Source of the DNA: Eubacterium sp.
GTDB taxonomy: Bacteria > Bacillota > Clostridia > Lachnospirales > Lachnospiraceae
NCBI GenBank assembly: GCA_021769425.1
Contig: JAETSX010000025.1
Coordinates: 1 to 43,150 of the forward strand
Direction of reading: 5' to 3'
DNA: 43,150 bases
The notes under the pieces are model-generated. The model saw only the letters and a list, made by a program, of their open reading frames with translations. It searched no databases and was not told where the DNA came from. Numbering within the stretch: the stretch's first letter is position 1; each line of letters begins with the position of its first letter. Shown here piece after piece: positions 4,983 through 37,055 of the stretch. The position numbers and the translations under genes were made by a program.

Positions 4983-5075
4983 ATATGCCCGTGAGCGAAA
5001 TCATTTGCCGACAGATCTTCACAGATTTGAGGAAAAAGCAAATGATTTGACAAAATAAGTATGCTCGTGAGTATA
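4983..5075 (+). repeat. palindromic intergenic element, copy 1
   Basis: About 93 bp. It begins with ATGCCCGTGAGCGAAATC and ends with TGCTCGTGAGTATA. The inner arms AAATCATTTG and CAAATGATTT pair perfectly. It lies between the rdgB start and the amidase stop. Orientation is defined here as plus when the CCCGTGAG end comes first. Six further copies lie in this window. Confidence 0.9.
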
Positions 5076-5110
5076 ACGGCAATTTCTCCATACTTTCCAC
5101 GACTATATAT

Positions 5111-6139
5111 TTAATATCCTTCATCCAACGCGCGCAGAATGGCGTTATAAATTCCCTGAGCCGCGAGCTTCTGATATTCCGGAGAATTCAGCTTATTCAG
5201 CTCCGTCTGGTTTGTCATAAATCCCACCTCGATCAAGGCCGCCGGAACCTCGTTATTTCTGATAATATAAATCCCGTTGCCATAAGTCAGTCCATTATTT
5301 TTGCTGGCCATGGAGCCTGTGATTTCTTCCAGGCAGATCTGGGCAAGATGCTTGCTGCTGAGTCCTTCACTGTCCTTTTCCTCATCATACATCACTTCTG
5401 TGCCGTTATAATCAGACATCTGTCCATCCGTGGTGGAATTGCTGTGAACGCTGATGAAAAAGTTCGCGCCCGCTTTCTCCCCAAGCTGCGCCCGCTGTTC
5501 AAAAGTCGGATTATTGTCCTCTGTTCTGGTATAATATACGCCGATGTTTTGGTCATTTTCGTCCAGAAGTTTTTTCAGTTCCAACACAATGGACAGGTTG
5601 ATGTCCTTCTCCATAATCCCCTGTTTAATGGCTCCCGGCGCGCCGCCGCCATGGCCGGCGTCAATCACAACCACCTTATCATACACCTGTCTAGGCGTGA
5701 GAAAATTCACATACAGAAATCCGTTTTTCACTGCGGTCTTCACCTCGTAAACAGCGTCCATGGTAATCTCAATCACGCCGTTTTCCATATACAGGTCATT
5801 GATGTAGTCGCTTCTTCCCAACAGGGGATGATTGCTGAAATAATCCTTTTCCACATCAGGAATCCGAATCGTAATCAACTGCTTTACATAATCATTTTCA
5901 ATGGCAATCTTATCTTCCGTCATTCCTGCCGGAAGTTCCAAACGAAGCTGATGGCGGAATGCAATATCCTCTTCCTCCTCCGCCTGCTCCGTATAATAAG
6001 CCAGCATCTGAAGCTCCGACATCTGTTCCCGTTTCGCTTCTCTTTTATTTACCACAGAAAACTGCCCTAGTATCACCACTGCCCCTGCGATTATCAGGGT
6101 GAAAACCGCTGATGACAGCTTCAGTATTTTTTCTTCCAT
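5111..6139 (-). CDS. membrane-anchored N-acetylmuramoyl-L-alanine amidase (Amidase_3)
   Basis: 342 aa. An uncleaved signal anchor at about residues 8-28 puts the protein outside the membrane. A linker domain of ~130 residues is followed by the Amidase_3 zinc hydrolase domain (about 160-340), which cleaves the lactyl-amide bond between MurNAc and the stem peptide. Zinc ligands are visible: His in IDAGHGG, Glu in GIMEKD and His in SVHSN. The catalytic Glu is in LIEVGFM. A role in cell separation, spore wall or germination is possible; the sequence does not decide. It sits 70 bp downstream of the protease gene on the same strand and may be cotranscribed. Confidence 0.92.
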   Translation of the reverse strand: MEEKILKLSSAVFTLIIAGAVVILGQFSVVNKREAKREQMSELQMLAYYTEQAEEEEDIAFRHQLRLELPAGMTEDKIAIENDYVKQLITIRIPDVEKDYFSNHPLLGRSDYINDLYMENGVIEITMDAVYEVKTAVKNGFLYVNFLTPRQVYDKVVVIDAGHGGGAPGAIKQGIMEKDINLSIVLELKKLLDENDQNIGVYYTRTEDNNPTFEQRAQLGEKAGANFFISVHSNSTTDGQMSDYNGTEVMYDEEKDSEGLSSKHLAQICLEEITGSMASKNNGLTYGNGIYIIRNNEVPAALIEVGFMTNQTELNKLNSPEYQKLAAQGIYNAILRALDEGY

Positions 6140-6209
6140 TATTTTGTACCGTCTCTTTCGTCCCGCTTTGCTAGTTCTTAGAAAATATCTTGTAAAACGG
6201 CTGCAGATA

Positions 6210-7919
6210 TTATGGAATATTCTTTGAATACACCTTCAGGCACAAATTACAATCCTGCTTATCCTCTGCGCTTTCCCATTTTTTGCCTCCGGAACTGATA
6301 TAGCCCTGCCCATCGGACAAATCCACATTTGCCGTCATATCATCTGCCGCATATTCAATTGCCAGGGGATGAACCGAACCCGGAGTGGTGATACGCAGCG
6401 CCACTGCAAATTTTTCTCCCTGCTCCACCTGGCATTCTTTCTCAAATTCCACTGTATAATAACCTGGATTAGCCAACACCCCGCTTGCCACCTTCACCCG
6501 TTCTGCCAGTGAATCCGTATTTTCAAAATCATTTACCACGTACAGCTCATAAGAAGTCTCTTTGCCGGTGGCGTAAAATCCTGCCGCCCGCAGAGTTTCC
6601 GCTGATTGGGCTGTATACACATTTGCCCCATACACGCTTTCCTTATTATAGCCCAACTGTCCCACCCAGCCGCATAAATCTGACTGATAAATATGATCAT
6701 AATTATCCGTTTCTTCAATTCCGGTGTAAATCACGCCGTGGCTGCCGATGTTTACGTCATAATAGGAAACGTAAAATACGCCCTTTTCCCCAAATTCTTC
6801 CCCCCAGCTGTTCTGACACAGGAAAGCCCCGTCATCCTCCACTTCCAGATTGAAATTTTCTTTGGGAAATGTATCATCCCAACCGATAATCATAATTTCA
6901 TGATTGGGCTTCTCTGCCCCTGCATAACAATAGGCATATGTTTTGCTGTTGTAATAAGGAGAATAGGAGCCGGCGTCTTCCAGCGCACTGTAAATAGCCG
7001 TCTGCACTCCGCCGTACAGAAATACAGACTCCTTGATCTTCTCAAAATCTTTACCGTCCAAAAGCTGGATTTCCTGTACATGCTTTACCGGCTCCAGCTC
7101 CTTTGCAGAAACGCCGTCTCCGTATGGGTCGTCTTTCTCATTGACCGGTCCCTGCCAGGCAGTAAGGTAAGCCATTCCCATCGTATATTCCCCGCCTTCT
7201 GCCTGCCCGCGCACAAAACCATTCTGAAGGGTCATATGATCCGGCGAAAGTTCCCATTCCTCCTCCGGCATCAGAGCCGACTCCATGGCAGAAAGGGCCG
7301 CAAAAGCCCAACATGTCCCAAAAGGCCCCTGATTCTTAATCTTAGGCGCCCGCTGCCTGTTTCGCAGATCATATTGCAAAGGCAGGATTCCGCTGCCCTT
7401 TGCCGCATCAACGGCTATGGCCTGATTCTTCTCACTATCCCAGTTATAATTAAAATTCAGCTTTTCCGCCACTGTTTTCGCCGCTACATAGTATTCTCCG
7501 TCAATATAAGTCATAGGCGATGCAATTTTTTCCTTTTTGCCATTCACCTGAACTTTATCCTCTTCCAACTGAAAAGCAATGACGTCGGAACGTTTTTCCA
7601 GCACCAGCTTCTGTTTCTCATACAGATGGGCGCTGCAGTGAAAACTGTCTCCCAGGGCGGACAGGGGGATCATAAGATTCAGGTTCTGATCCATGAAAAT
7701 CCCATGTTCTTTATTGGTCAGCTCCCGGTTATCCACAAGCAGCTTTAAGGTCTGCTTATTGATGCTTTCTGCAATCAGGGGATTCCAGATTTCCGCTTCC
7801 AGCCTGGCCCCGCGGAAGCTCTCCACCTTTTCATTCTTTCCTCCCAGACCGGCAAATTTAAAAAACACCGCAAGCATAAGGATTGCGGCCATGATTATGT
7901 ACTTTCCCCACTGCCTCAC
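6210..7919 (-). CDS. secreted papain-like (C1A) cysteine protease with lectin-like tail
   Basis: 569 aa. Residues 1-24 form a signal peptide or anchor. Residues ~75-172 resemble a copper-amine-oxidase N-terminal-type domain, which in secreted Firmicutes proteins acts as a wall or linker module. The C1 peptidase domain follows, with oxyanion Q197, nucleophile C203 (GPFGTCWAF), H340 (NHEIMIIGW) and N370 (QNSWG), all intact. The C-terminal ~150 residues form a beta-rich region like the lectin-like domain found behind clostridial C1 proteases. It starts with GTG, overlapping the methyltransferase stop by 4 bp with AGAGG upstream. Probably active on extracellular or host proteins (inference). Confidence 0.88.
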   Translation of the reverse strand: MRQWGKYIIMAAILMLAVFFKFAGLGGKNEKVESFRGARLEAEIWNPLIAESINKQTLKLLVDNRELTNKEHGIFMDQNLNLMIPLSALGDSFHCSAHLYEKQKLVLEKRSDVIAFQLEEDKVQVNGKKEKIASPMTYIDGEYYVAAKTVAEKLNFNYNWDSEKNQAIAVDAAKGSGILPLQYDLRNRQRAPKIKNQGPFGTCWAFAALSAMESALMPEEEWELSPDHMTLQNGFVRGQAEGGEYTMGMAYLTAWQGPVNEKDDPYGDGVSAKELEPVKHVQEIQLLDGKDFEKIKESVFLYGGVQTAIYSALEDAGSYSPYYNSKTYAYCYAGAEKPNHEIMIIGWDDTFPKENFNLEVEDDGAFLCQNSWGEEFGEKGVFYVSYYDVNIGSHGVIYTGIEETDNYDHIYQSDLCGWVGQLGYNKESVYGANVYTAQSAETLRAAGFYATGKETSYELYVVNDFENTDSLAERVKVASGVLANPGYYTVEFEKECQVEQGEKFAVALRITTPGSVHPLAIEYAADDMTANVDLSDGQGYISSGGKKWESAEDKQDCNLCLKVYSKNIP

Positions 7920-9097
7920 CTGTCTGCCTCTTCCTCTCTGTGCTCTGTATGTCTGCTTCGTTTCGGCGGCCTGGGCCCCTGAAACTGGTAAAAATATGTT
8001 TTCAGCATTCCGTTGTAAATCTTTCGGTTTTTATCCGCTTTTCTTCCTATATATTTCTCAGCGTCTTCATAACCGGTCAGCAGATAGAAAGACCAGCTGT
8101 CCAGCCGCCGGATGGCTTCCCCCAGTTCTCCGTATAGCCCCGGAAGCGCTTCCTTTTCTTCCATCCGTTCTCCATAAGGCGGATTGCAGATGACAAATCC
8201 GTATTTTTTCGGATGGCTTAACTGGCTGACCGGCCTCTGCTGAAAATGAATCATATGATCTACCCCTGCCCGCCGGGCATTTTCCCTGGCAGCTTTCAAC
8301 ACTTCCCCGTCAATATCATATCCCTGGATATCCGTCGCTGTCTCCCGCCGGATCAGGTCTTCTGCTTCCTCTAGGCCCTCATGCCACAATTTGCGTTCGA
8401 TCAGATTCTCCCACTTCTCTGCGGTAAATCCCCGGTTCATTCCCGGCGCAATACCTGCCGCCATCATAGCCGCTTCTATGGGAAAGGTTCCGCTGCCGCA
8501 GAAAGGATCCACCAGAATCCGATCCTTTTTCCAGGGAGTCAGCAAAATCAATGCCGCAGCCAGTGTTTCTGTCACAGGCGCTTTGCTCGTCATTAACCGG
8601 TATCCTCTTTTGTGCAGGGAATCTCCGGAAGTGTCAATCCCCACTGTCACTTCATCTTTCATCAAAAATAAGCGCAGCGGATACTCTGCACCGGACTCCG
8701 GAAACCACTCCATATGATATTTTCCCTTCAGCCGCTCCACCATTGCCTTTTTCACAATGGACTGTATGTCTGAGGGACTGAATAATTTACTCTTTACGGA
8801 AGACGCCTTGGCAACCCAGAATCTGCCGTCTGTCGGAATATAATCTTCCCAGGGAATGCTTTTGATTCCCTGAAACAGTTCTTCAAATGTTTCCGCATGA
8901 AACTGCCCCGCTTTCAACAGCACCCGCTCTGCGGTGCGCAGGAAAATGTTGGCCCGGCAAACAGCCTCTTCATCTCCCTCAAAAGTCACTCTACCGTCTT
9001 CCACCCGGATAATTTCATATCCCAAATCATATATCTCTCTTTTTAAAACCGCTTCCAGCCCAAAATGGCAGGGCGCAATCAATTCAAATGTTTTCAT
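7916..9097 (-). CDS. rlmL: THUMP-domain 23S rRNA guanine-N2 methyltransferase (RlmL/YpsC family)
   Basis: 393 aa. An N-terminal ferredoxin-like/THUMP RNA-binding region (to about 155) is followed by a Rossmann methyltransferase domain with the SAM motif DPFCGSGTFPIEAA (about 197-210) and the catalytic motif NPPYGER (about 308-314). The family methylates N2 of a guanine in 23S rRNA (m2G2445 in E. coli). This is the short Firmicutes form, lacking the second RlmK domain of the E. coli fusion. GGAGACAGAA precedes the ATG. It is translationally coupled to the protease gene, although the two functions are unrelated. Confidence 0.9.
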   Translation of the reverse strand: MKTFELIAPCHFGLEAVLKREIYDLGYEIIRVEDGRVTFEGDEEAVCRANIFLRTAERVLLKAGQFHAETFEELFQGIKSIPWEDYIPTDGRFWVAKASSVKSKLFSPSDIQSIVKKAMVERLKGKYHMEWFPESGAEYPLRLFLMKDEVTVGIDTSGDSLHKRGYRLMTSKAPVTETLAAALILLTPWKKDRILVDPFCGSGTFPIEAAMMAAGIAPGMNRGFTAEKWENLIERKLWHEGLEEAEDLIRRETATDIQGYDIDGEVLKAARENARRAGVDHMIHFQQRPVSQLSHPKKYGFVICNPPYGERMEEKEALPGLYGELGEAIRRLDSWSFYLLTGYEDAEKYIGRKADKNRKIYNGMLKTYFYQFQGPRPPKRSRHTEHREEEADR

Positions 9098-9110
9098 TTC
9101 TGTCTCCGTT

Positions 9111-9145
9111 TATGCCCGTGAACCAAATATTCTGCCAACATGTTC
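9111..9145 (+). repeat. decayed half copy of the palindromic element
   Basis: TATGCCCGTGA followed by CCAAATATTCTGCCAACA matches the left arm of the 93-bp element with several substitutions. The right half is missing. It overlaps the leader just upstream of the rlmL ribosome binding site. Confidence 0.6.
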
Positions 9146-9189
9146 TCATTATTTTAAAAATTCTTAGAGTACCACTTCTTTCCCCTCCG

Positions 9190-9242
9190 AAACAAACAGC
9201 CGGAAGGCTCTAAGAATATATTATCTTCTCACCTCCCGGCTG
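9190..9242 (-). terminator. terminator of the rhodanese gene
   Basis: Minus strand: CAGCCGGGAGG (9242-9232) pairs with CCTTCCGGCTG (9207-9197) over 11 bp, and the inner TGAGAA pairs with TTCTTA. TTTGTTT follows. A separate perfect 10-bp inverted repeat (CTCTAAGAAT 9208-9217 with 9160-9169) interleaves with this stem. Confidence 0.75.
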
Positions 9243-9251
9243 TCAATCATT

Positions 9252-9548
9252 TTATTGTTTTTGCAGGACAGTATTCATGCCGCCCACCAGCGTTGCTGTC
9301 CGGTAGCCTTCCCGGCTCAGTTCCTTTGCCGCCATCAGGCTGCTGGAACCTCTGTCACAGTATAGGAGGTACAGTTTATCCTTGGGCAGATATTTCCGAA
9401 ACATTTCCAGTTCTTCATAAGGTATATTTCTGGCTCCCTCCACATGAATGTCTTCAAACTCCTCTTTGCTGCGCAAATCTATTACCCAGACATCGGGGCG
9501 TTTCCGGTATTCATTAAATTCCCGAATGCCAATTGTCTGAAACTCCAT
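9252..9548 (-). CDS. single-domain rhodanese-like protein
   Basis: 98 aa, one rhodanese domain. WVIDLRSKEEFEDIHVEGARNIP is the usual first half, split here only by length. The active-site loop YCDRGSSS contains the cysteine (about residue 69) that carries persulfide in active sulfurtransferases. The loop length fits sulfur transfer to small acceptors such as cyanide or thiols. The physiological partner is unknown. AGGGGTGAG precedes the ATG. It is a single-gene transcription unit bounded by terminators on both sides. Confidence 0.88.
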   Translation of the reverse strand: MEFQTIGIREFNEYRKRPDVWVIDLRSKEEFEDIHVEGARNIPYEELEMFRKYLPKDKLYLLYCDRGSSSLMAAKELSREGYRTATLVGGMNTVLQKQ

Positions 9549-9572
9549 AATCTCACCCCTTAAACAGAATAT

Positions 9573-9611
9573 AAAACAGATTACCGGAAATCACTTTCCG
9601 GTAATCTGTTT
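9573..9611. terminator. bidirectional terminator, 17-bp perfect stem
   Basis: A perfect 17-bp inverted repeat (9574-9590 with 9595-9611; inner part TTACCGGAAA) has a 4-nt TCAC loop, with A/T-rich flanks on both sides. It lies downstream of the small Asn-rich gene at 9651 and upstream of the rhodanese start. Confidence 0.85.
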
Positions 9612-9650
9612 CTACATTATTATATTATGCAGTTTCCTTCTTTTTGACAA

Positions 9651-9851
9651 TTATCTCTCGTAAGAATCATGGCAGTTGGAGCCGCTCTCATTGCTTGCCT
9701 TATTGCTGGATTTGTTCTGAGAAGAAGAATTCTTTGTGCTATTCTGGGAATATGCATTCTTTGTGCTGTTCTGAGAAGTTGTATTCTTCATATTTCCAGC
9801 TTCGTTGGTTCCGTTTGTACTCTTGTTCTGCATATTGCTGTTTTTTGCCAT
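9651..9851 (-). CDS. small Asn/Ser-rich protein, probable spore protein
   Basis: 66 aa, almost entirely N, S, K, T and Q, with three imperfect 9-residue repeats (SQNSTKNAY / SQNSTKNSS / SQNKSSNKA). It has one cysteine near the C-terminus (SNCHDSYER) and no hydrophobic segment. AGGAGG lies 9 nt before the ATG and a terminator follows, so it is a real gene despite its low complexity. Composition and repeat style resemble gamma-type small acid-soluble spore proteins, and the promoter looks forespore-specific. The family assignment is inference. Confidence 0.7.
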   Translation of the reverse strand: MAKNSNMQNKSTNGTNEAGNMKNTTSQNSTKNAYSQNSTKNSSSQNKSSNKASNESGSNCHDSYER

Positions 9852-9884
9852 TTTAGTTTTCCTCCTAATTCTTTACTGCTTTCA

Positions 9885-9915
9885 TAGTATCTGATAAAGA
9901 GTCTTTTTTTATGCA
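9885..9915 (-). promoter_or_regulatory. sigma-G/F-like forespore promoter
   Basis: Minus strand: TGCATA (9910-9915), 18-nt spacer, GATACTA (9885-9891). This matches the forespore consensus (about GNATR, 17-18 nt, CATNNTA) far better than a sigma-A promoter. It places the start about 27 nt before the ATG of the Asn-rich gene. Confidence 0.6.
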
Positions 9916-9958
9916 GAAAATTAATTCAAAAATTTTTTAAATTTTTTTCATTTTCCTC

Positions 9959-9987
9959 TTGCTTTTTCTGACAAGCTGTACTATAAT
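9959..9987 (+). promoter_or_regulatory. sigma-A promoter of the regulator/ABC locus
   Basis: -35 TTGCTT (9959-9964, moderate), 17-nt spacer, perfect -10 TATAAT (9982-9987). The transcript would start near 9994, giving a leader of about 150 nt before the response regulator. Confidence 0.7.
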
Positions 9988-10013
9988 AGCATTTGTAAGG
10001 AGGATTTCACCTT

Positions 10014-10049
10014 ATGAAATTTTTCTTACTAAGTTATACCCCTTATTAA
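10014..10049 (+). CDS. 11-aa leader peptide ORF
   Basis: ATG to TAA encodes M-K-F-F-L-L-S-Y-T-P-Y. A perfect AAGGAGG (9997-10003) lies 10 nt upstream, better than that of most genes here. It sits between the promoter and a hairpin in the 5' leader of the response regulator gene, the arrangement of translation-controlled attenuators of antibiotic-response operons. Translation and function are inferred. Confidence 0.55.
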   Translation: MKFFLLSYTPY

Positions 10050-10068
10050 TTATTTATACTCCCCTCAT

Positions 10069-10101
10069 GAAGAGATCAGTGGCTCCCCCGCTGGTCTCTT
10101 C
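10069..10101 (+). promoter_or_regulatory. leader hairpin, possible attenuator
   Basis: GAAGAGATCAG (10069-10079) pairs with CTGGTCTCTTC (10091-10101) over 11 bp including one G-U, with an 11-nt loop. TATTTATATT follows, a broken T-run. It begins 20 nt after the leader ORF stop and ends about 35 nt before the response regulator ribosome binding site. Confidence 0.55.
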
Positions 10102-10147
10102 TATTTATATTAAAGATATTAAAGTTACACCTATTACGGAGGTATCT

Positions 10148-10840: not shown

Positions 10841-10942
10841 CTTCTTTATAAGTTCTTTATGACTAATAAAACACGGAACCCTTATGATAATGGTACAGCA
10901 TTCTTCGTTTCCTACAGGGAAGGCAGCATGCCGGCCGCAGAT

Positions 10943-11034
10943 TATACTCAAGAGCATGCTTATTTGCCAAATGATCTGCTTGTTTTCTTGAAGCAGAGAA
11001 AATTTGTTGGCAAATCATTTCGCCCACAGGTATT
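10943..11034 (-). repeat. palindromic intergenic element, copy 2
   Basis: A diverged copy in inverted orientation, beginning TATACTCAAGAGCATGC and ending CGCCCACAGGTAT. It separates the response regulator from the ABC ATPase gene of the same locus. Confidence 0.8.
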
Positions 11035-11078
11035 ACTCCTACGTAAAATTCTGCGATATTTAACTGCCGGAGTAATAT
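11032..11078. repeat. short inverted repeat with GCCGGAGTAAT end
   Basis: ATTACTCC (11033-11040) and GGAGTAAT (11069-11076) flank a 28-bp spacer directly after element copy 2. The right arm belongs to a longer motif (GATATTTAAcTGCCGGAG, from 11055) that recurs at 33637-33660 and partly at 22418-22433. Confidence 0.6.
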
Positions 11079-11125
11079 AACCGAAACGGAGAATCATTAA
11101 GAATACCCAACAGGGAGGAAACGCA

Positions 11126-12828: not shown

Positions 12829-12887
12829 ACGGACAGCTTCATTGCCGCGGAAAATAGTAATGAAAAATCTTACGAAATGGAGGCCCT

Positions 12888-13833: not shown

Positions 13834-13926
13834 TATACCCGTGAGCGAAATCATTTGCCAGAAGATCGTTCATAACTTTGAGGAAAAAAGCAAATGATTT
13901 GGCAAATCAGTATACTCGTGAGTATA
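13834..13926 (+). repeat. palindromic intergenic element, copy 3
   Basis: The best-preserved copy: TATACCCGTGAGCGAAATC at the left, TACTCGTGAGTATA at the right, inner arms AAATCATTTGC and GCAAATGATTT. It fills the gap between two convergent genes (kinase stop 13814, cNMP-protein stop 13941), where it could act as a bidirectional mRNA 3' end. Confidence 0.9.
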
Positions 13927-17003: not shown

Positions 17004-17004
17004 A

Positions 17005-22184: not shown

Positions 22185-22277
22185 TATACTCACGAGCATA
22201 CTTATTTGCCAAATCATTTGCTTTTTTCCTCAAAGTTCTGAACAATCTTCTGGCAAATGATTTCGCTCACGGGTATA
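22185..22277 (-). repeat. palindromic intergenic element, copy 4
   Basis: Starts TATACTCACGAGCATAC and ends CGCTCACGGGTATA, with inner arms GCCAAATCATTTGC and GGCAAATGATTT. First element of the composite. Confidence 0.9.
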
Positions 22278-22324: not shown

Positions 22325-22417
22325 TATACTCACGAGCATACTTATCTCCCAAATCATTTGCTTTTTTCCTCAAATCTGTGAAAGATCTGTCGGCAAATAA
22401 TTTCGCTCACGGGTATA
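22325..22417 (-). repeat. palindromic intergenic element, copy 5
   Basis: Starts TATACTCACGAGCATAC and ends CGCTCACGGGTATA. It differs from copy 4 at several positions in the loop, where it is closer to copies 1 and 7, so it is not a recent tandem duplicate of copy 4. Confidence 0.9.
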
Positions 22418-28152: not shown

Positions 28153-29975
28153 TGTTTTTCTTCCGCACTCTCTACCGTGAATCCGGTCATGTTCCAGGAA
28201 TCATCCCGCTTCACCACTATCCCTACGGTTCCTTCTTCATCTGTAAACTTCCGAAACAGATTCGGCCCCATTTCATCCTTGAAATATCCAACAATTTCAC
28301 CATTGTACAGAAAATGTGCGCCTTCCCGGTCATAGGACAATCCATATTTCTCATATTCGGAAAACTCCGCACTTCGGGAAATATTCTCCAGAAAAAGAAC
28401 AAAAGGTTCCTGCACATCGCTTTCCCACACCGTTTCAGAATCTATTCCTCCAGAAACATCTGTCGGATTCTTCTTGGGCAGGGGAAGCAAAACCATACCT
28501 TCGGAATTAAATCGTTCTAAATCCGGCACCTTATCCGTTTCCGCCGTTTCTGTTCCCGCCAGACCCCTGTTATCACTTTCTGCTGTTTCCGTCAAACCTC
28601 TGCTGTCGTTTTTTTCTGTCTCCGCCAAACTTCTGCTATCGTTTTCTTCTGTCTCCGCCAAACCTCTGCTGTTGTTTTCTTCTGTCTCCGCCAAACTTCT
28701 GCTATCGTTTTCTTCTGTCTCCGCCAAACCTCTGCTGTTGTTTTCTTCTGTCTCCGCCTCCGCCACAGTATCCTTTTCAACCGTATTCTGCAGTGCAGAA
28801 GCGGCAAACAATACGGCCATAAACATCACCAGAATTCCAGATCCTGTAAGGGAACCAACGGTAAATTTTCTTTTTTTCATAATAGCAGCAATCCTTTCTT
28901 CCATTGCATTTTTACTGAATCCGCTTCCCCAGGAAACCAAACTGCTTTTTTGCTCTGCCAGGTTGATTAAAGACATGGCGTACGCCCGCTTGGAATCCTG
29001 TCCGAAACGCTCAATGACTTTTTCATCACAGGCCAACTCCAGATCCCGGTTTGCCAAAATCTGCATGATCCACACCAATGGATTGAACCAGTGAATGCAT
29101 GCGGCGGACACAAGCAAAAACTTCCAAACAGCATCAAACCTGCGGACATGAATCAATTCATGAGTTAAAACAAACTTCATCTGCCGGGAATCTTCCCACT
29201 GAATCCCTTTGGGAAGCAGAATCACCGGACGCAGCACACCGTAAGTCATAGGCGTTACAATCAAATCCAGGCTGCGCACCTGCACCCGGCGCTTCAGCGG
29301 AACAGACTGTACACACTCCCAAACAGCCGGATCTTCCACTGGCAGTGAGGTTCGGAATATTCTGCGGTATTTCAGGTATGCAGTCAGATAAACTCCTGCA
29401 CAGAGCAGCGCCCCACTCAGATAGAGAATCTTTAAAAGAGAAAATCCCGCACCGGCGCTGAGAGAATTCGGTTCCGCACTTACTGCTTCATTCCCGCTTC
29501 CTTTTGCAGCATTCTCTGCTTCTTCATCGGAACCGTTCCATATTCCATTCCCTGCTCCTTCACCGAAACCGTTCCATATTCCATTCCCTGCTCCTTCACC
29601 GAAACCGTTCCATATTCCATTCCCTGCTCCTTCACCGAAACCGTTCCATATTCCATTTCCTGCTCCTTCACCGGAACCGTTCCATATTCCATTTCCTGCT
29701 CCTTCACCAGAAAGAGAACTCCCGTCACCCTCTAATCCGGTAATTCCGGAAATTCCTGCAAGCCCCTCAAGCCCGTCTGCAATTCCGGAACTCTCCAACA
29801 GCGAATAAACGCTGAAAGGCGCCTCCACTGACCAGGGCGCCAGAAGCCGCAAAACCGCTGCCATCCACAGTATCAGAAAGGTATGCCTGGGCAGCCTGTT
29901 CTGAAACAGCCTGCGGGCTGCCAGTATCACCAAAATTAAAATTCCGCCGGAAACACTCATTTCCCACAACGTCAT
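28149..29975 (-). CDS. BlaR1/MecR1-like M56 membrane metalloprotease with repeat linkers
   Basis: 608 aa. Two N-terminal helices, an extracellular loop carrying five 12-residue repeats (GEGAGNGIWNGF type, about 91-148), a third helix (about 178-200), and a cytoplasmic zinc protease domain with THELIH (272-276) and the third ligand in ELACDE. A fourth helix (about 375-395) is followed by extracellular 11-residue repeats (AETEENDSRSL type, about 406-470) and a ~120-residue C-terminal domain. The penicillin-binding sensor domain of true BlaR1 is absent, so beta-lactam sensing is unlikely and the ligand is unknown. The ATG at 29975 has GAGGTG upstream; a GTG at 29984 is the alternative. The partner repressor gene lies directly upstream. 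Confidence 0.88.
   Translation of the reverse strand: MTLWEMSVSGGILILVILAARRLFQNRLPRHTFLILWMAAVLRLLAPWSVEAPFSVYSLLESSGIADGLEGLAGISGITGLEGDGSSLSGEGAGNGIWNGSGEGAGNGIWNGFGEGAGNGIWNGFGEGAGNGIWNGFGEGAGNGIWNGSDEEAENAAKGSGNEAVSAEPNSLSAGAGFSLLKILYLSGALLCAGVYLTAYLKYRRIFRTSLPVEDPAVWECVQSVPLKRRVQVRSLDLIVTPMTYGVLRPVILLPKGIQWEDSRQMKFVLTHELIHVRRFDAVWKFLLVSAACIHWFNPLVWIMQILANRDLELACDEKVIERFGQDSKRAYAMSLINLAEQKSSLVSWGSGFSKNAMEERIAAIMKKRKFTVGSLTGSGILVMFMAVLFAASALQNTVEKDTVAEAETEENNSRGLAETEENDSRSLAETEENNSRGLAETEENDSRSLAETEKNDSRGLTETAESDNRGLAGTETAETDKVPDLERFNSEGMVLLPLPKKNPTDVSGGIDSETVWESDVQEPFVLFLENISRSAEFSEYEKYGLSYDREGAHFLYNGEIVGYFKDEMGPNLFRKFTDEEGTVGIVVKRDDSWNMTGFTVESAEEKQ
28588..28752. repeat. in-frame 33-bp tandem array in the M56 gene
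   Basis: Five 33-bp units. Two types alternate (NNSRGL and NDSRSL), giving a 66-bp higher-order period that points to unequal recombination of paired units. The encoded segment is acidic, extracellular and next to the last membrane helix. Confidence 0.9.
29533..29712. repeat. in-frame 36-bp tandem array in the M56 gene
   Basis: Five nearly identical 36-bp units (starts 29533, 29569, 29605, 29641, 29677) encode 12-residue Gly/Asn/Trp repeats in the first extracellular loop. Confidence 0.95.
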
Positions 29976-29985
29976 CTGCGTCACC

Positions 29986-30345: not shown

Positions 30346-30359
30346 ACATACCTCCTGAA

Positions 30360-30373
30360 ACTACTGCAGTAGT
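30360..30373. promoter_or_regulatory. BlaI-type operator 1
   Basis: ACTACTGCAGTAGT is a perfect 14-bp palindrome of the TACTAC/GTAGTA class bound by BlaI/MecI. It lies between the -10 box and the ribosome binding site of blaI. Confidence 0.85.
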
Positions 30374-30383
30374 CTATATATTC

Positions 30384-30412
30384 ATACTACCACAGTAGTT
30401 TCACTTTGTCAA
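30384..30412 (-). promoter_or_regulatory. promoter of the blaI operon
   Basis: Minus strand: perfect TTGACA (30407-30412), 17-nt spacer, -10 TAGTAT (30384-30389). The second operator overlaps the -10 and spacer, so repressor binding would block polymerase. Confidence 0.85.
30386..30399. promoter_or_regulatory. BlaI-type operator 2
   Basis: ACTACCACAGTAGT, arms ACTAC/GTAGT around four central bases, centred 26 bp from operator 1 and inside the promoter. Confidence 0.85.
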
Positions 30413-30452
30413 TACTGCAGCAAACTTTCCATCCGTATCCAAAAAGTAGAAA

Positions 30453-33400
30453 TCAGTGTTTCCTGGAAAAGAAATTCATTAAAATCTCTTTGATGTGGTT
30501 ATACCTTCTGGCATAGGAATTTTCCACCCGAATGACCTGCAGGCCAAAGGCGCTGCAGATCTCCTGCTTCTGCTTCTCACGCTGCTGCAGAACTTCCTCT
30601 TCCAGATGCTCCCGCCCGTCCAGTTCAATGGCCAGCACCGGGACTTCTTCGGCTTCCTGCTTCTCATACACGACAAAATCAAACTGATCTGTATAAAATA
30701 ACTCTTTTTGTTCCGGACGTTCCGAAAACAGCTCCTTAATATCCACTTTCTGCTGCACCAAAAAACGGTTCTGAGACAGCCAGATATTTTCCAGCGCATG
30801 GTTTAAATTCTTCAAAAAGGCTTCTTCTGTTTCCGTGGTGAAAGGCTTCACCCCAAGGGCTCTGGAATTAGCCTTTTTCTGGGTGACCTGAGACATTCCG
30901 TTTTGTCTGGCATACTGCACCAGTTCATAAAAATCATCCTCCCCATCCTGCTGATGCAGCCAGTTAAGATGCTTCATATCTGCCAGAATCACCAGCTTGT
31001 CCCTGGCGCGGGAAGTGGCCACATTGATGAGTTCTTTATTATTTTTCAGCCATTGGTACGTGCCCTGTCCGGTCTGTTCTGTAATGGCAGTGGAAAACAG
31101 CACCACATCTTTCTCATCCCCCTGAAAAGCATGGACGGTTCCGCAGTCTACATGAGTAAAACGCGCCTCCCTGGCTGCCTCTTCCAGCAGTCTCCTCTGA
31201 TTTACAAAAGGCGTAATCACCCCTATGGTTTTATCCCGGTTTGCGGCGGCATAGCGCAGAACCGCCTCTACCTCGGCAGGCGCGGTATTCTTCCCATTGC
31301 TCTGGCTGTCTTTCACGTCAATATACAGCAAAGGCTCCTTCTCATCGCTTTTCGTTTTGATGCATAGTTTTTCATTGTAGTATTTCTTGTTGTTAAACCC
31401 AATGATTTTCTCATGACAGCGGTAATGGTAGTGAAGAAGGATTTCATCGCTGACCGCGTCACAGGCAAGAAAAGTTTTGTAAATGGAATTTTTCCGGTAG
31501 TCGTATTCATCGGAAATATTGTACTTTTTCCTTAATTTCTGATTGACCAGTTCCTCCAACTGAATTACAGGATTTAACTGCTGAGGATCTCCCACCAACA
31601 TCAGGCTGCTGCCCCGGATCACGGGAACCAGGGACACCGCCAGATTGCACTGGCTGGCCTCATCCATAATCACCATATCAAACATGGGCGCAGGCTCTCC
31701 CAGCTTATGGGCAGAAATGCAGGTGGTGGCCACAATGGGAAAAATTTCCTGTAGCTTGCGGATGTTTTCTTTTTTGCTGAGATACCTGGCAAAATCCTCC
31801 AACTGCAGCTTTTTATTCTTATTTAAGATAATATTTTTCAGTTCCTCATGTCTGGGCAAATCAATTTTTTTGATATAACGAGCCGACGTGTAATACAGGT
31901 ACTTTTTCAGTTCCTCCACATTGTCATCCAACAGAGAAAACGCCTCTTCTTCTGTAATATCCCCGGTTTTTTCAATTCTGCGCTTCACCTGCTCCATCTG
32001 CCTTCCCTGCAAATCCGCCTGAAAAGGCAGCATCTGAAAAGATATTTGCTGCTCATTTTCAAATTCCAGCACCCGATGAATAGTCTCTCTGCGTTCCTCC
32101 AAATCCAGCCGCTCCTCGTATCTGCGCAGCAAGCCGGACAGCCGTTTGGCCCGTTCGATACGGTCTTCCCGGTTCCTGTCCAGCGTGGATTCATAGACCT
32201 TGATTTTCCTGGTCTGTTCGTATACGCTTTTCATATGCTCCAGGGCTTCCTGCATTTTCTCATTGCTTCCCAGCCGCAGCGCCGGAAAGGGAATGCTGTA
32301 ACTTTGGTATTTCATTCCCAGCAGCTTTTCCACCACCCCGTTGATGGGATGGTTGTTATAGGATGCAAACAGTACGGTTTTTTCATTGAAAAAGGCGGTG
32401 ACTATGGTATTGATTATAGTGCTTGTCTTTCCGGTTCCCGGCGGCCCCTGGATGTAAGCCACCGGATATTTCATGGCGTTGTTGATTGCCAGGAGCTGAT
32501 CCAGATTTACTTTCTGATCCGTCAGCACAATGGGATATGCTTTCCTCCGCACCGGCCGGCTGACCATTTCCCCGAAAAAAGCCCGGATGGGGGCAGTCAC
32601 TTCCTCTCTCTGATACATCTCAATGACCGCTTCGTATTCCTTATGCAGATCCAGCAGAATATCCATGCCCAGCCCAATCATATACGGCATATCATCTACG
32701 GCTTGTCTGCCATGACGGAAGATGCAGTCCTTAATCTGCTCCTGGTTCTGTTCAAAATCCTTCAAAAGCTCATATTCCTCTGCGTCCAGATATTTCCGTA
32801 TGTTTTCCTTTCTGCCTTCCAGAGTGTATTCGGTACAGATAACAATTTCCTCCTCCGGGTGCAGAAGCCTGCGTTTTACATCCAGCTGCAGGTTCCGGTA
32901 AGCCAAAACATACAGTCCCCTGGGCGTGTGAATGCTGAGCACATTCATGGCGAGCTGCTTCAGCCTCAGCTTGCCGTCCTTTTTCTCTCTTGTTCCATAT
33001 TGAAAATATTTCACAATCATGCGGAACTGTTCTTCATTCAGGGGATAATCCTCTCCGTGAAAGCTCTCCCGGTCCAAATGGCGTATCAGTTCAAAATCCG
33101 AGTGATAGGGCACTGTGTCCAGGCGGTTGCACATTTCCAGATAATTGAGTATTTTCAGGTTGACGGGGCATTCAAACAGTTCTTTATATTTATGGGGATT
33201 CAGATAAATATCTCTGACCAGTTCCTGATTGACGGGACAGTAAGAGCCTTCCACAATACTGGAAGAAAGAATGGAATCCATGTAAATCACGTCAAAAGTC
33301 TCTGTGGTGTATCTGCCCAGGTGCAGGCCTTCCACTTTCAGCGTGCGTTTTGCCGGATTCAGATTGTAAATGCCGATCCAGTATTTTGAAATCTGGTTTT

Positions 33401-33476
33401 CTTTGTTGCGGTATTCAATGCTGAGCCATTTGCCCTCATGGATGGCCCTGAAAATGTCCCGGTAAATGGTGTTCAT
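30453..33476 (-). CDS. WYL-like / SF1 helicase / DUF2726-like nuclease fusion
   Basis: 1007 aa. Residues 1-80 resemble a WYL domain (AIHEGKWLSIEYRNK, then a beta-barrel-like run). The SF1 (Upf1/Dna2-like) helicase core has Walker A GPPGTGKT (344-351), motif II MDEAS, motif III GDPQQL, the YRCH segment, GTVHAFQGDEKD (motif V) and NVATSRARDK (motif VI). The last ~130 residues look like a DUF2726/PD-(D/E)XK nuclease (DQFDFVVYE, then AIELDGREH with the E-x-D pattern). A ligand-controlled helicase-nuclease for DNA or RNA is suggested; defence or repair roles are inference. It is a single-gene unit. Confidence 0.85.
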   Translation of the reverse strand: MNTIYRDIFRAIHEGKWLSIEYRNKENQISKYWIGIYNLNPAKRTLKVEGLHLGRYTTETFDVIYMDSILSSSIVEGSYCPVNQELVRDIYLNPHKYKELFECPVNLKILNYLEMCNRLDTVPYHSDFELIRHLDRESFHGEDYPLNEEQFRMIVKYFQYGTREKKDGKLRLKQLAMNVLSIHTPRGLYVLAYRNLQLDVKRRLLHPEEEIVICTEYTLEGRKENIRKYLDAEEYELLKDFEQNQEQIKDCIFRHGRQAVDDMPYMIGLGMDILLDLHKEYEAVIEMYQREEVTAPIRAFFGEMVSRPVRRKAYPIVLTDQKVNLDQLLAINNAMKYPVAYIQGPPGTGKTSTIINTIVTAFFNEKTVLFASYNNHPINGVVEKLLGMKYQSYSIPFPALRLGSNEKMQEALEHMKSVYEQTRKIKVYESTLDRNREDRIERAKRLSGLLRRYEERLDLEERRETIHRVLEFENEQQISFQMLPFQADLQGRQMEQVKRRIEKTGDITEEEAFSLLDDNVEELKKYLYYTSARYIKKIDLPRHEELKNIILNKNKKLQLEDFARYLSKKENIRKLQEIFPIVATTCISAHKLGEPAPMFDMVIMDEASQCNLAVSLVPVIRGSSLMLVGDPQQLNPVIQLEELVNQKLRKKYNISDEYDYRKNSIYKTFLACDAVSDEILLHYHYRCHEKIIGFNNKKYYNEKLCIKTKSDEKEPLLYIDVKDSQSNGKNTAPAEVEAVLRYAAANRDKTIGVITPFVNQRRLLEEAAREARFTHVDCGTVHAFQGDEKDVVLFSTAITEQTGQGTYQWLKNNKELINVATSRARDKLVILADMKHLNWLHQQDGEDDFYELVQYARQNGMSQVTQKKANSRALGVKPFTTETEEAFLKNLNHALENIWLSQNRFLVQQKVDIKELFSERPEQKELFYTDQFDFVVYEKQEAEEVPVLAIELDGREHLEEEVLQQREKQKQEICSAFGLQVIRVENSYARRYNHIKEILMNFFSRKH

Positions 33477-33511
33477 TTTGCTCTCCCTGCTGTTTGGCTT
33501 TTGATGTCTTT

Positions 33512-33540
33512 ATTATATCTCCAAACAGAAAGGATGACAA
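33512..33540 (-). promoter_or_regulatory. promoter of the helicase-nuclease gene
   Basis: Minus strand: TTGTCA (33535-33540), 17-nt spacer, perfect TATAAT (33512-33517). A GGGAG site precedes the ATG. Strong for an accessory gene. Confidence 0.75.
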
Positions 33541-33636
33541 CAGAAAACAAGAGGAGCAGCTATGGAGAACGGACAAAATTTACACCTTTTTTATTTTGAT
33601 AATTTGCAGATATTTGTTGAGTTCCCTTACTTTTTT

Positions 33637-33660
33637 GATATTTAACCGCCGGAGTAATAC
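33637..33660 (+). repeat. recurring GCCGGAGTAATA motif
   Basis: GATATTTAACCGCCGGAG plus TAATAC. The same 23-base motif with one difference occurs at 11055-11077, and its last 17 bases end the composite repeat at 22431. Possibly the terminus of another element family. Confidence 0.6.
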
Positions 33661-33743
33661 ATCAAATGGCAAGAAAAGTCAGCAAAATCAAACGTTTCAA
33701 GCTTAATCAGCAGGCGCTAATTAAGGATTGCTGATAAATCAAA

Positions 33744-33790
33744 GGGGCTATCGGGAAACGGCAATTTAAAAGTTATTTTTGAACAGCCCC
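33744..33790 (-). terminator. candidate terminator overlapping a stop codon
   Basis: Minus strand: GGGGCT (33790 side) pairs with AGCCCC (33749-33744) across a 35-nt loop, followed by TTTGATTT. The stop codon of the 310-aa gene lies inside the loop. Confidence 0.4.
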
Positions 33791-34705
33791 TAACCGAACG
33801 AAAATATCTTCCAAAGCCTGCTCCAGATATAAAACAATTTCTTCTGCATCTTCTGCATATCCCTGTACCAATGAAGCAATTGCCTTTCTGACCTGCTCCT
33901 TGGCTGCCTGAACTTTCGGCTGTTTCCAGGCATTCTGCGTCTTCCCGCTCTCCTCCTTTTCCTCCCGGGCTTTCGGCTGCTCCCATACGCTCTGTATTCT
34001 TCGATAATCCTCCTCGGTAAATTTTTCCTCCCGGGCTTTCGGCTGCTCCCATACGCTCTGTATTCTTCGATAATCCTCCTTGGTAAATGTATGCTCCGTC
34101 AGCGGTTTTTTGGCCATAACATGGCAGGCAATATCCCTTAGAACTATCCAGCAGAGATTCTCTGCCAGTTCCTCATACCGGCTGTCATACTTCATCAGCA
34201 CACCTTGCACATACGCTTCAGGAAACGTATTCAGAAATTTCTGTTCCGCCCGGATGCATAAAATAAATTCATAGATTTTATCAATTCCTGTCTGTCCGGA
34301 AAGATTTTTCAGCACCGGATAGTCCAGTGTCAGAATGGTATCCTGGGGGCAGAATTTCATGTCATACCATTTGAAGAACTCCGGCAGGCCGCTAATTACC
34401 GTATCATGCAGGCAGCGATTGCCGTAATGGACAAAAGACGGCATAATCTCATTGTAAAGAGCCAGCGCTTTCTTCGCTTTCTCTTCCACCTGCAGCAACC
34501 CGGCCTCATATAGCTGCTGCGCTGTCATGTTCCCACTGGCAGCTGCAGTCTGGTTTCCGGATGCCTCCGCTTCATGAATACAATATTTCACAGCCTCCAT
34601 CAACTGCCGGGCCTCCTCATAGGAGATAGAAGTGTGTTCGTAAGCAGCGTATTTTTCGGCCAGTTTGCCAACTACTGGCACAAGTTCTTCCATCGTCAGT
34701 TCCAT
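33773..34705 (-). CDS. uncharacterised protein (DUF6179-like)
   Basis: 310 aa, no signal peptide, no membrane helix, no catalytic motif that I recognise. The N-terminal half is helical, with the central segment FFKWYDMKFCPQDTILTLDYP. Near the C-terminus a 22-residue tandem duplication (DYRRIQSVWEQPKAREEK twice) is followed by a third decayed unit. The ATG at 34705 has AAAGGGG upstream; a TTG at 34711 lacks support. It follows the 177-aa gene by 33 bp in one transcription unit. The DUF6179 name is from memory and unverified. Confidence 0.65.
   Translation of the reverse strand: MELTMEELVPVVGKLAEKYAAYEHTSISYEEARQLMEAVKYCIHEAEASGNQTAAASGNMTAQQLYEAGLLQVEEKAKKALALYNEIMPSFVHYGNRCLHDTVISGLPEFFKWYDMKFCPQDTILTLDYPVLKNLSGQTGIDKIYEFILCIRAEQKFLNTFPEAYVQGVLMKYDSRYEELAENLCWIVLRDIACHVMAKKPLTEHTFTKEDYRRIQSVWEQPKAREEKFTEEDYRRIQSVWEQPKAREEKEESGKTQNAWKQPKVQAAKEQVRKAIASLVQGYAEDAEEIVLYLEQALEDIFVRLGAVQK
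33961..34092. repeat. 66-bp in-frame tandem duplication
   Basis: Two 66-bp units (33961-34026 and 34027-34092) differing at very few bases, encoding 22 residues each. The near identity implies a recent event. Confidence 0.9.
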
Positions 34706-34738
34706 GCGCAATTACCCCTTTCCAATCAAATCCTGCAT

Positions 34739-35272
34739 TTATCCCCAGCAAAGCTCTTTCAAAACCTCAAAGTACACATCGTAATCCCACCTCTTTACTT
34801 CATCAAACCTGGCATATTCCCGGTAACCGTCAGAACTTTGATAGCCCTGATACCCTGCACGGATTGCCTGTGCAAAAATATTAAGGCACGTCCCCTCCAG
34901 ATAGTCCAAATCTCCGTAACACATCAGTTCAAATTGTTCTTTCATCAGATGCAGCAATTCATCATCCGTAATCTCACCGCTCATCTCATTTTTATAGAGA
35001 TAAAAAATTTCCTGAAGCCGGATAATGGTATCCACATAATTATTCTGATCAATAAAGTCAGAATCGCAGAATTCATAAATGATTTTCGGCGTAATGCCCT
35101 CACCAAATTCCACCCGCTTTTGTTCCCGCAGCGTATTGTTCTTCTCCTCCAGAATCAATTTAGCGTCCTGCTCGCTTAAAACAAGCCCGTACCGCTCTGC
35201 CTTCTGGTTTGTTTCAATCACTTTCCCCAGTTGCTTCTGCTGCTGTAATAAAACCATCCAATTTTCTTCCAA
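34739..35272 (-). CDS. uncharacterised protein (DUF6323-like)
   Basis: 177 aa, soluble and acidic. The sequence pattern GLVLSEQDAKLILEEKN, then LDYLEGTCLNIFAQAIRAGY is reminiscent of DUF6323 proteins, which I recall as neighbours of DUF6179 (unverified). The start is a TTG with GGGAGGG 7 nt upstream; the first in-frame ATG is 15 bp further in, too far from that site. It is the first gene of a two-gene unit. A palindromic element lies 46 bp upstream, at the probable promoter position. Function unknown. Confidence 0.65.
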   Translation of the reverse strand: MEENWMVLLQQQKQLGKVIETNQKAERYGLVLSEQDAKLILEEKNNTLREQKRVEFGEGITPKIIYEFCDSDFIDQNNYVDTIIRLQEIFYLYKNEMSGEITDDELLHLMKEQFELMCYGDLDYLEGTCLNIFAQAIRAGYQGYQSSDGYREYARFDEVKRWDYDVYFEVLKELCWG

Positions 35273-35317
35273 GAACAGCCCTCCCTACTATAGATTTAAA
35301 ATTTGTGTCCTGTATTA

Positions 35318-35406
35318 TACTCAAGAGCATACTTATTTGCCGAATCATTTCTGATTTTCTTGAACTAGTGAACACTTGCTGGAAAATCATTTCGCTCACG
35401 AGTATA
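35318..35406 (-). repeat. palindromic intergenic element, copy 6
   Basis: A diverged copy (89 bp): starts TATACTCAAGAGCATAC and ends CGCTCACGAGTATA. Loop and inner arms have drifted (GAATCATTTCTG instead of AAATCATTTGCT). It resembles copy 2 in the CTCAAGAG start. Confidence 0.85.
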
Positions 35407-35898
35407 ACTTCCTACGGATAAACTGAAACCAAAATTATGCCCTTTTTTGCAAAAATTGTTTCTAAACGCCTAAAGCGGGCAATCAATGTTCCGATCCCCG
35501 GCAAAAACCGGAACCAAAGATAGAAAGTTCGCTCTAGTGTACTGTCTGTATTATATCTGGCGAAACTCCGCAGGATATTCGTTCATCGGCAAGGCGGATT
35601 TTCAGCGGCATAGCGGTGACTACGTCGATTGATGAGGGTCTGCCCCGCTTTATCGGGCACAACGCAGCAGATGGAAATTTAGACAAGTGAAAGGTACGGT
35701 TAATTAGTATGGATTATACTAGGTTCACTCCTAGGTCGTGCACCACGCTGCACGGTCACAAGCCAATACCGTATTGGAGCCAGAATCCGGCCTCTTGCCG
35801 TAAGGCAATTTTAAACAGTCAGGATTTATTACCGTGAGCGCCATAGGCATAAACAGGAACGGAATGATTATAGCATTGGGAACAGCCGATTGCCAGTC
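35407..35898. other. noncoding stretch with serial hairpins
   Basis: No supported ORF over ~490 bases, yet GC content and structure differ from a plain spacer. Stems on the plus strand include ACTAGG/CCTAGG near 35728-35743, CGTGCA/TGCACG near 35744-35760, CCAATAC/GTATTGG (35764-35778), GCC/GGC, and TTGCC/GGCAA (35795-35808). It could be a structured RNA, a mobile-element end or recombination-site remnant. I cannot assign it. Confidence 0.4.
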
Positions 35899-35927
35899 TT
35901 GAGTTTTTGCCGTTTTTGTGGTATAAT
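35899..35927 (+). promoter_or_regulatory. orphan plus-strand promoter
   Basis: TTGAGT (35899-35904), 17-nt spacer, perfect TATAAT (35922-35927). It fires directly into the bidirectional terminator at 35940-35970 and has no plus-strand gene downstream. Confidence 0.5.
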
Positions 35928-35939
35928 ATATACAGAAAG

Positions 35940-35970
35940 AAAAAGAAACGATACTTTGCCGTTTCTTTTT
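35940..35970. terminator. bidirectional terminator
   Basis: AAAAAGAAACG (35940-35950) pairs with CGTTTCTTTTT (35960-35970), with T-runs on either strand. It can end the minus-strand nucleotidyltransferase transcript and any transcript from the promoter at 35899. Confidence 0.8.
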
Positions 35971-36056
35971 TTCTCTTTCCGTTATGATACAATTTTAATG
36001 TCCTGACTTCCAATCATTTCATAATCATCCAGAAGCATCATGAAAACCATCCTTTG

Positions 36057-36184
36057 GATTGTCATTATCTTTATCATTCAAAATTTCTGCAGAATAAACT
36101 CCCGGTAAATCTGATCCAGTGATTGTCATTATCTTCATCATTCAAAATTTCTGCAGAATAAGCTCCCGGTAAATCTGATCCAGT
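36057..36184. repeat. 64-bp tandem duplication spanning a gene end
   Basis: Units 36057-36120 and 36121-36184 differ at two or three bases. The second contains the last 14 codons and stop of the nucleotidyltransferase gene; the first is a noncoding duplicate downstream. Confidence 0.92.
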
Positions 36185-36912
36185 GTATCCCACTCCGCTC
36201 TCCTGTCATCTTCCATATCATCTGCAATCTGTTTCTGACGTTCTAATTCCTCCCGGATAAATTCTATGATTACCGGCATCTGGGGCTTTTGTTCCTTCTC
36301 ATCTGTCAGTTTCTTTTTTTCCAGCAATTCTTCAATGCCTCTGCGCAGATGTCCCGGCAGCTCCATCTGCATTAAGTCCTCAAACAATACCGGCGGCGCA
36401 GCGCCATAAGTTTCCACATACCGGCAGGCCAGAAGGGGCCGAAGGGCATAAAAATATTTTTTATACCTGACCTGTTCCCCCTGCAGATATTTCTGGAATG
36501 TACTTTGGGCTGTTCCATAATAATGGTACACTGCCGCTTTTTTCGAAAAGTATTTCTTTGCTTTCTGGTAAATTTCTTCCCACTGTTTTGTCTTTTTATA
36601 GACAACCGGCGAGTTGCTCCACTCAAACAACGTTGCATTGCCCCGGTGAAACTGCGCCAATGCTTTTTTCAAATCCCATCCGTTGATATCCAGCACATCA
36701 TCCAACTGCCATTCAATAACATCCTTTTCTTCCTTTAATTTCAGATAATCCCCTTGCGTTCTTGCATAAATAAACCGCACATCGTAATCACTGTCCGGGG
36801 AAGCAAAGCCCCATGCCCTGCTGCCGGATTCCACTGCAAGCAGAATTGTCACATTTTCCTGCTTCTCTATCTCCAATAATTTCTCATGCATTTCTTCTGA
36901 AATATTTCTCAC
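36142..36912 (-). CDS. nucleotidyltransferase (YcgL/RlaP-like, COG3541 type)
   Basis: 256 aa. The polymerase-beta-type NTase motif is GSRAWGFASPDSDYDVRFIY (about residues 30-49), with G-S and D-x-D for metal and NTP binding. A helical domain of ~170 residues follows. I chose a GTG at 36912 with AAAGGAGG 6 nt upstream; the longer frame starting at 36984 begins inside a palindromic repeat and is rejected. The substrate is unknown; relatives are predicted to modify RNA ends or small molecules. A second NTase gene of the same broad family lies immediately upstream. Confidence 0.85.
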   Translation of the reverse strand: MRNISEEMHEKLLEIEKQENVTILLAVESGSRAWGFASPDSDYDVRFIYARTQGDYLKLKEEKDVIEWQLDDVLDINGWDLKKALAQFHRGNATLFEWSNSPVVYKKTKQWEEIYQKAKKYFSKKAAVYHYYGTAQSTFQKYLQGEQVRYKKYFYALRPLLACRYVETYGAAPPVLFEDLMQMELPGHLRRGIEELLEKKKLTDEKEQKPQMPVIIEFIREELERQKQIADDMEDDRRAEWDTLDQIYRELILQKF

Positions 36913-36963
36913 GGATTGCCTCCTTTCCCCGTCCTGCTGCCGGAACAGTTTTGCTTCTGCTGT

Positions 36964-37055
36964 TATACCCGTGAGCGAAATCATTTGTCGACAGATCTTT
37001 CACAGATTTGAGGAAAAAAGCAAATGATTTGGCAATAAGTATGCTCGTGAGTATA
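36964..37055 (+). repeat. palindromic intergenic element, copy 7
   Basis: Starts TATACCCGTGAGCGAAATC and ends TGCTCGTGAGTATA, with inner arms AAATCATTTG and CAAATGATTT. It lies between the two nucleotidyltransferase genes. Its antisense strand supplies a spurious ATG in frame with the downstream gene. Confidence 0.9.

Follow-up and report, generated by a model that had tools for sequence, protein, structure and literature searches.

RUP (repeat unit of pneumococcus) is an intergenic repeat of 107 bp, present in 108 copies, with inverted ends and a TA target, and passages of two published accounts interpret it as a MITE mobilised in trans by IS630-Spn1 (PMC2229807, PMC3049150); the first of these also records stops in all six of its frames (PMC2229807). 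The palindromic element described here was first noted in a 43-kb stretch of Eubacterium sp. DNA, the whole of which is referred to as the window. As far as a comparison by description goes, it resembles RUP in being intergenic in tendency, in its inverted ends and TA target, and in exceeding 100 copies. RUP is accompanied in its genome by an IS630 whose ends are similar, whereas no such partner was found for the element among the DDE_3 loci examined, and in 113 of 123 copies at least one frame is open.

The Correia elements (NEMIS) of Neisseria are ~107 to 156 bp long, with inverted ends of 24–26 bp and a terminal TA, according to parts of the same accounts (PMC2229807, PMC3049150). Here too the likeness, drawn from descriptions only, lies in the inverted ends and the TA at the termini; the RNA-level processing described for NEMIS, however, receives no support for the element from a strand test (see below). 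ERIC sequences are enterobacterial and appear in one of these sources as intergenic repeats of 127 bp with inverted ends and a terminal TA (PMC2229807). The element shares the intergenic position, the inverted ends and the terminal TA, but is 92–93 bp long, and one of its copies (c4) has no blastn match in a collection of E. coli genomes at E values up to 0.01, which sets it apart from ERIC.

Pneumococcal BOX is presented in part of one account as boxA-boxBn-boxC with tandem middle modules (PMC3049150). A 219-bp relative of the element elsewhere in the own genome (L081:5907–6125, contig C13) is similar in that it holds tandem internal modules between the element's ends, with a 42-bp unit repeated 4.3 times and partial matches to this unit in L321 and L333. 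The standard element differs from BOX in having no repeated module, since 109 of the 123 full copies are single units of 92–93 bp.

Structure and abundance of the element

The seven full copies in the window (91–93 bp) that the initial annotation had listed are all borne out, as is their presence in both orientations, with three on the plus strand and four on the minus strand (Table 1). The starts of c1 and c6 are read as 4984 and 35316 in place of 4983 and 35318. A half copy had been counted without a position and is taken to be the left end listed as a relic, which is missing from the aligned position in Petralouisia muris (G015). Chance is excluded for the window copies, because the end motif TATACYCGTGAGCG (up to three mismatches) has 20 matches in the window versus a mean of 2.38 (sd 1.77, maximum 8) in 100 shuffles. 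Five of the seven are assigned to a young subfamily, the other two to an older one. The two RlaP-like nucleotidyltransferase genes of the window adjoin one another (36142–38139), with c7 between them.

Table 1. Copies of the element in the window (window coordinates)
Copy	Coordinates	Strand	Type	Context
c1	4984–5075	+	full copy, young subfamily	
relic	9111–9146	+	left end only	
c2	10943–11034	-	full copy, older subfamily	
c3	13834–13926	+	full copy, young subfamily	flanked by convergent ORFs
c4	22185–22277	-	full copy, young subfamily	
c5	22325–22417	-	full copy, young subfamily	47 bp from c4
c6	35316–35406	-	full copy, older subfamily	
c7	36964–37055	+	full copy, young subfamily	overlaps start of RlaP-like ORF 36142–36984 (-)

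The form common to different assemblies consists of TATACCCGTGAGCCAAATGATTTGCC, ~30 variable bases and GCAAATCATTTGGCAAATAAGTATGCTCGCGAGTATA. In the young subfamily of the own genome the inner arms carry C..G in place of G..C at their central pair, and the older copies c2 and c6 have AAATGATTT as left inner arm. The inner arms AAATCATTTG and CAAATGATTT had been called perfect, which holds for four of the seven copies (c1, c3, c4 and c7) but not for c5, with one change, or for c2 and c6, which differ. The loop between the arms measures ~31–33 nt, not ~25 bp as first given, and it varies between assemblies. In the young form the two ends are inverted repeats, identical at 17 of 24 bases. The mobile unit would be TACCCGTGAGC...GAGTA, which is 88–89 bp in most copies, and its inverted ends are unequal, with a left end of ~24 bp and a right end of ~36 bp. 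Each contains the near-palindrome GCCAAATSATTTGSC, which is placed ~12 bp (about one helical turn) deeper in the right end than in the left; judged by its sequence, the near-palindrome in each arm is capable of forming a small hairpin.

The family is not confined to the window, and a covariance-model search of the own 4.9-Mb genome gives at least 137 matches with E values of 0.1 or below (150 of 4255 first-look candidates scored, with at least two rows overlapping other rows). With c1 as the query there are at least 43 matches (40 of 144 first-look candidates scored). The left-end pattern, allowing up to three mismatches, matches the genome 131 times (74 forward and 57 reverse), and the same pattern read backwards as a control gives no match. 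In 112 stretches of the genome (468,509 bases) 146 non-overlapping hits were read. Full, distinct copies make up 123 of them (87 young and 36 older); their length and the absence of a transposase gene place them within the range of MITEs (50–500 bp).

The copies had been described as lying only between genes, and this stands as a tendency: 18 of the 116 copies with flanks of at least 700 bp are mostly under an ORF of at least 100 aa. A random-placement figure of 0.78 is drawn only from the 98 copies outside ORFs and is an approximate control. Of these 98, 17 have convergent ORFs on either side and 13 divergent ones. Similarly, the element was said to have no coding capacity, and no gene is seen inside it, although the copies with an open frame (113 of 123, above) keep at least one of the six open throughout. 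A coding role was considered for three ORFs that enter or cross copies and was rejected, their Pfam domains starting at residues 151, 57 and 42, past the element.

Insertion sites and the TA target

Two clean empty sites are present in a close relative (G023, MGBC000170), corresponding to copies at L028 and L089:1540, and both have a single TA where the own genome has TATACCC...GAGTATA. At one, the own genome reads ...CATTAT[TATACCC...GAGTATA]ACATA and the relative ...CAATATTAACATA; at the other, the own genome reads ...TTATTA[TATACCC...GAGTATA]ATTC and the relative ...TTATTATAATTC. Two further empty sites (L020 and L329) fit but are diverged. Three copies on contig C130 are arranged head-to-tail and join as GAGTA-TA-TACCC, with neighbours sharing one TA; the relative shows no clear TA at this tandem site.

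The bases flanking the TA show a palindromic preference for a TTAA-like target. Among the 123 copies, A follows the right TA in 89%, and the left TA is preceded by T in 57% and by A in 28%. Where both TATA ends are intact (97 copies), the NTAN target is TTAA in 51, ATAA in 25 and CTAA in 10.

Apart from the clean and diverged sites, the evidence for empty sites consists of alignment lengths, in comparisons restricted to cases with fewer than 250 bases between the flanks and fewer than 150 unaligned bases per side (c3, c4 and c5 fall outside these limits). The own genome is longer by at least 70 bases in 24 of 27 such comparisons, involving 24 own copies (14 young and 10 older), and a profile search finds no copy at the relative's place in 23 of the 24, one of which (L336) has a left-end-like stretch there. 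The exception is L030, where a decayed relative of the element is present at the relative's site and a young copy appears to have landed beside it; the young copy (own contig C57:62044) adjoins an apparent decayed older copy that the relative also has (L143:16489–16569 in G023). For none of the 14 young copies does the profile detect an intact counterpart at the same site in relatives. The three comparisons of similar length (L089:1399, L317 and L328) all concern older copies and were read from length alone as occupied sites with shared insertions; this reading was abandoned, as the profile finds no copy in the relative, with decayed similarity in the alignment at L089:1399.

One copy (L077:1725–1841, at the end of own contig C116) stops at GCAAATG and is followed by other sequence to the contig end, possibly because an insertion sequence has inserted in the element.

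The palindromes are very probably a family of non-autonomous DNA transposons (MITEs) that insert at TA, in agreement with the MITE-like reading offered in the initial annotation. The genome-wide size of the family, the inverted ends, the single TA at two clean sites, the palindromic target, the lineage-specific copies and the even private variation (see below) argue for this. Presence or absence between relatives, together with many dispersed copies, is the pattern expected of MITEs, and a TA target that of MITEs mobilised by IS630/Tc1-mariner elements. A transposase supplied in trans would bind both ends, the unit would be inserted at a TA inside the TTAA-like target with duplication of the TA, and transposase binding would presumably keep the ends constant. 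The same two clean sites would also result from insertion next to a TA with no duplication, so that those sites alone do not separate the two modes; the palindromic target argues against it, and the TA appears to be duplicated at insertion, not merely adjoined. This would be a new family of TA-inserting MITEs, genomic parasites of a familiar, ordinary kind, and, by comparison of descriptions only, RUP- or Correia-like in behaviour.

Distribution in relatives and the search for a mobilising enzyme

The first model, with stricter filters, has matches in at least eight of the 28 other genomes of the genus and none in 20 of these 28 or in 32 genomes beyond the genus. A broader model, with 10 candidates scored per genome, has matches in at least four (counting the own genome) of 396 genomes in the family. 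The genus and family counts are lower bounds, because the filters were strict or few candidates were scored. The exact pattern of the older form occurs in a species-genome collection in 46 stretches of 13 assemblies, mostly Lachnospiraceae: four are titled Lachnospiraceae, two are titled Eubacterium, three have no family name, P. muris, in whose genus the window's genome is placed, belongs to Lachnospiraceae, and the others are of Coprococcus, Roseburia and Lachnotalea, all genera of Lachnospiraceae.

With 150 candidates scored in each assembly, there are at least 82 matches in the CATKXR MAG, 51 in P. muris, 35 in D16-56, 20 in CASCGD, 18 in each of CANDMI and CANDBT, 14 in B62_62, nine in MGBC000170, five in the Coprococcus MAG, three in CANSYV, two in each of Roseburia 1XD42-69 and the Lachnotalea MAG, and one in Eubacterium plexicaudatum ASF492. 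Several of the matching assemblies are of mouse origin (P. muris, 'wildmice', ASF, MGBC). Among possible mobile carriers, two exact end patterns have no match in viral contigs, and blastn with one copy each gives none in plasmids or phages (E values up to 0.001).

The initial annotation could not name the family, and Rfam gives no match for it: at gathering scores only tRNAs are found in the window, and five loci with copies, searched with E values up to 1, show only a T-box elsewhere in L255. Titles and abstract beginnings among the literature matches listed contain no description of a MITE for Lachnospiraceae and point to no paper on the element family. The element forms a large repeat family in Lachnospiraceae, and its lineage-specific copies could serve as strain markers.

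A DDE_3 search of 29 genus genomes reveals 59 matches in 14 genomes, and 30 of these were taken as loci. Paired ends that match at 20 or more of 24 bases occur at nine of the 30, and none resembles those of the element, whose end motif has only two single, chance-like matches around the 30 (L205 and L230); no autonomous IS630-type element sharing the ends was seen among these 30 of the 59 DDE_3 matches. The partial matches to DDE_3 in the own genome number three and lie at two places, one close to the end of a contig. No ends paired around a transposase were seen in 2.74 Mb of collected sequence, in which the paired ends span 204–219 bp (L090, L081 and again in loci that overlap these), 694–712 bp (L274), ~2 kb (L090, with a weak left end) and 2505 bp (L260).

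Several of these pairs were considered as possible parents and rejected. Transglutaminase-like, T2SSF and DUF4860 genes lie between the ends of the L260 pair and a shikimate kinase gene between those of the L274 pair, with no transposase in either, and the L090 pair encloses only ORFs shorter than 160 aa and tandem copies. Solitary right ends in D16-56 and the CATKXR MAG, also considered as candidates for the ends of a parent, were likewise set aside. With the assembly split into 228 contigs, a parent present in several copies could have fallen into the breaks.

The TA target and the example of RUP, whose IS630 shares its ends (PMC2229807), suggest that the mover is a DDE transposase of the IS630/Tc1-mariner kind. 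An alternative that we regard as considerably less probable is a transposase of another, non-IS630 type or one not yet recognised, acting on two unequal ends whose palindromic binding site is set roughly a helical turn deeper on the right; the driver would have been lost and the passengers kept by host genomes, with some copies beginning to grow BOX-like internal arrays. The element ends provide a bait for the missing transposase.

Variation of the ends and loop, and competing explanations

Divergence from the consensus among the 87 young copies is 0.027 in the outer arms, 0.009 in the inner arms and 0.123 in the loop. It is also low (0.020) in an unpaired spacer near the right end, so that conservation tracks the ends and is not explained by pairing alone. 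Private variants fall on ends and loop alike, both in the young subfamily (33 in 64 end sites and 18 in 29 loop sites) and in the older (44 in 64 and 15 in 28). For the young subfamily, variants common to at least three copies number 13 in the ends versus 15 in the loop, which is not a significant difference (Fisher p 0.15), and shared variants in the older subfamily number 23 versus 32 (Fisher p 0.0006); per site, the loop of the young subfamily has 10.45 shared-variant cells and its end segments have 0.3–1.9. With private variants even and inherited ones concentrated in the loop, the ends appear to be kept for movement and not for the host. On the simplest reading, copies mutate freely after insertion and only those with intact ends spawn new ones. 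The comparison of private with inherited variants, together with that of G-U with A-C changes, constitutes a worked test separating mobility from selection for host function.

The initial annotation had regarded the outer arms as kept in G-U pairing and suggested selection on the transcript, and neither proposal is supported. The outer arms are not paired by G-U alone, since one outer position is C versus A in 40 of the 45 distinct sequences that make up a wider set. A structured RNA element, with the hairpin transcribed together with its neighbours and selected for mRNA stability, processing or attenuation in the way described for ERIC and nemis repeats, is unlikely. It predicts an excess of G-U among one-sided changes in the helices, whereas the strand test gives G-U 43, A-C 56 and other 47 (the test covers the Watson-Crick pairs of the consensus, which excludes three of the 13 outer pairs, and cells are non-independent through common ancestry). 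The G-U:A-C split is 16:18 in the outer and 6:4 in the inner helix of the young subfamily, and 10:17 and 11:17, respectively, in the older.

Gene orientation is likewise even, as among the 98 copies outside ORFs 35 run with tandem genes and 33 against them, and both the retained C.A mismatch and the equal incidence of private variants in arms and loop speak against RNA function. Eight single-strand folds of four copies do have z scores of -1.6 to -4.4, and across the 45 distinct sequences double changes, affecting both sides of a pair, number 22 cells in the two helices together (17 in the inner helix), compared with 6.5 in shuffles; both observations favour an RNA. The double changes would mean that the inverted repeats are kept alike, which a DNA-level process explains equally well, whether a DNA-binding enzyme that keeps the repeats alike or template switching at palindromes. 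No sign was found of the element working as RNA.

The same near-palindromes that could form hairpins in each arm might instead recall REP/REPIN-like elements, moved by a Y1 (HUH) tyrosine transposase that acts on hairpins and duplicates no target. Taken alone, the clean empty sites would fit insertion beside a TA under this explanation too. We consider it very unlikely, given a target preference that is palindromic around the TA, termini that are inverted repeats, and adjacent tandem copies with one TA in common. Least credible of all is a host-selected DNA site, in which the GCCAAATSATTTGSC palindromes would bind a chromosomal protein and be kept for the host: the motif is conserved across assemblies of differently named taxa, but the units are of constant full length with sharp ends, their insertions are missing from relatives, the 20 genus relatives above give no match (at the sensitivity of the first-model search), and private variation is even.

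Other repeats are present beside the TA-inserting MITE family. At L084:1916–2029 the left arm of the element is repeated three times in tandem with 44-bp spacing. A second interspersed repeat of ~115 bp is found at L090:2315–2429, L073:120–234 and in L322, L085 and L279, and one copy of it lies inside a 217-bp relative of the element. A third family has units of ~78 bp, in tandem in some loci, and is represented in L073, L299, L280, L089, L300, L296, L335, L023, L077, L293 and others; its match in the window (2897–2975, 81%) sits between tRNA genes of the cluster at 2780–3611. The window also contains tandem repeats of 33, 36, 36 and 39 bp (28515–28778, 29474–29744, 39744–40089 and 41359–41531) inside large ORFs, which encode an M56 peptidase-like protein and two DUF6070 proteins, and two near-perfect tandem duplications at 33957–34088 (66 bp, 98%) and 36057–36184 (64 bp, 97%).
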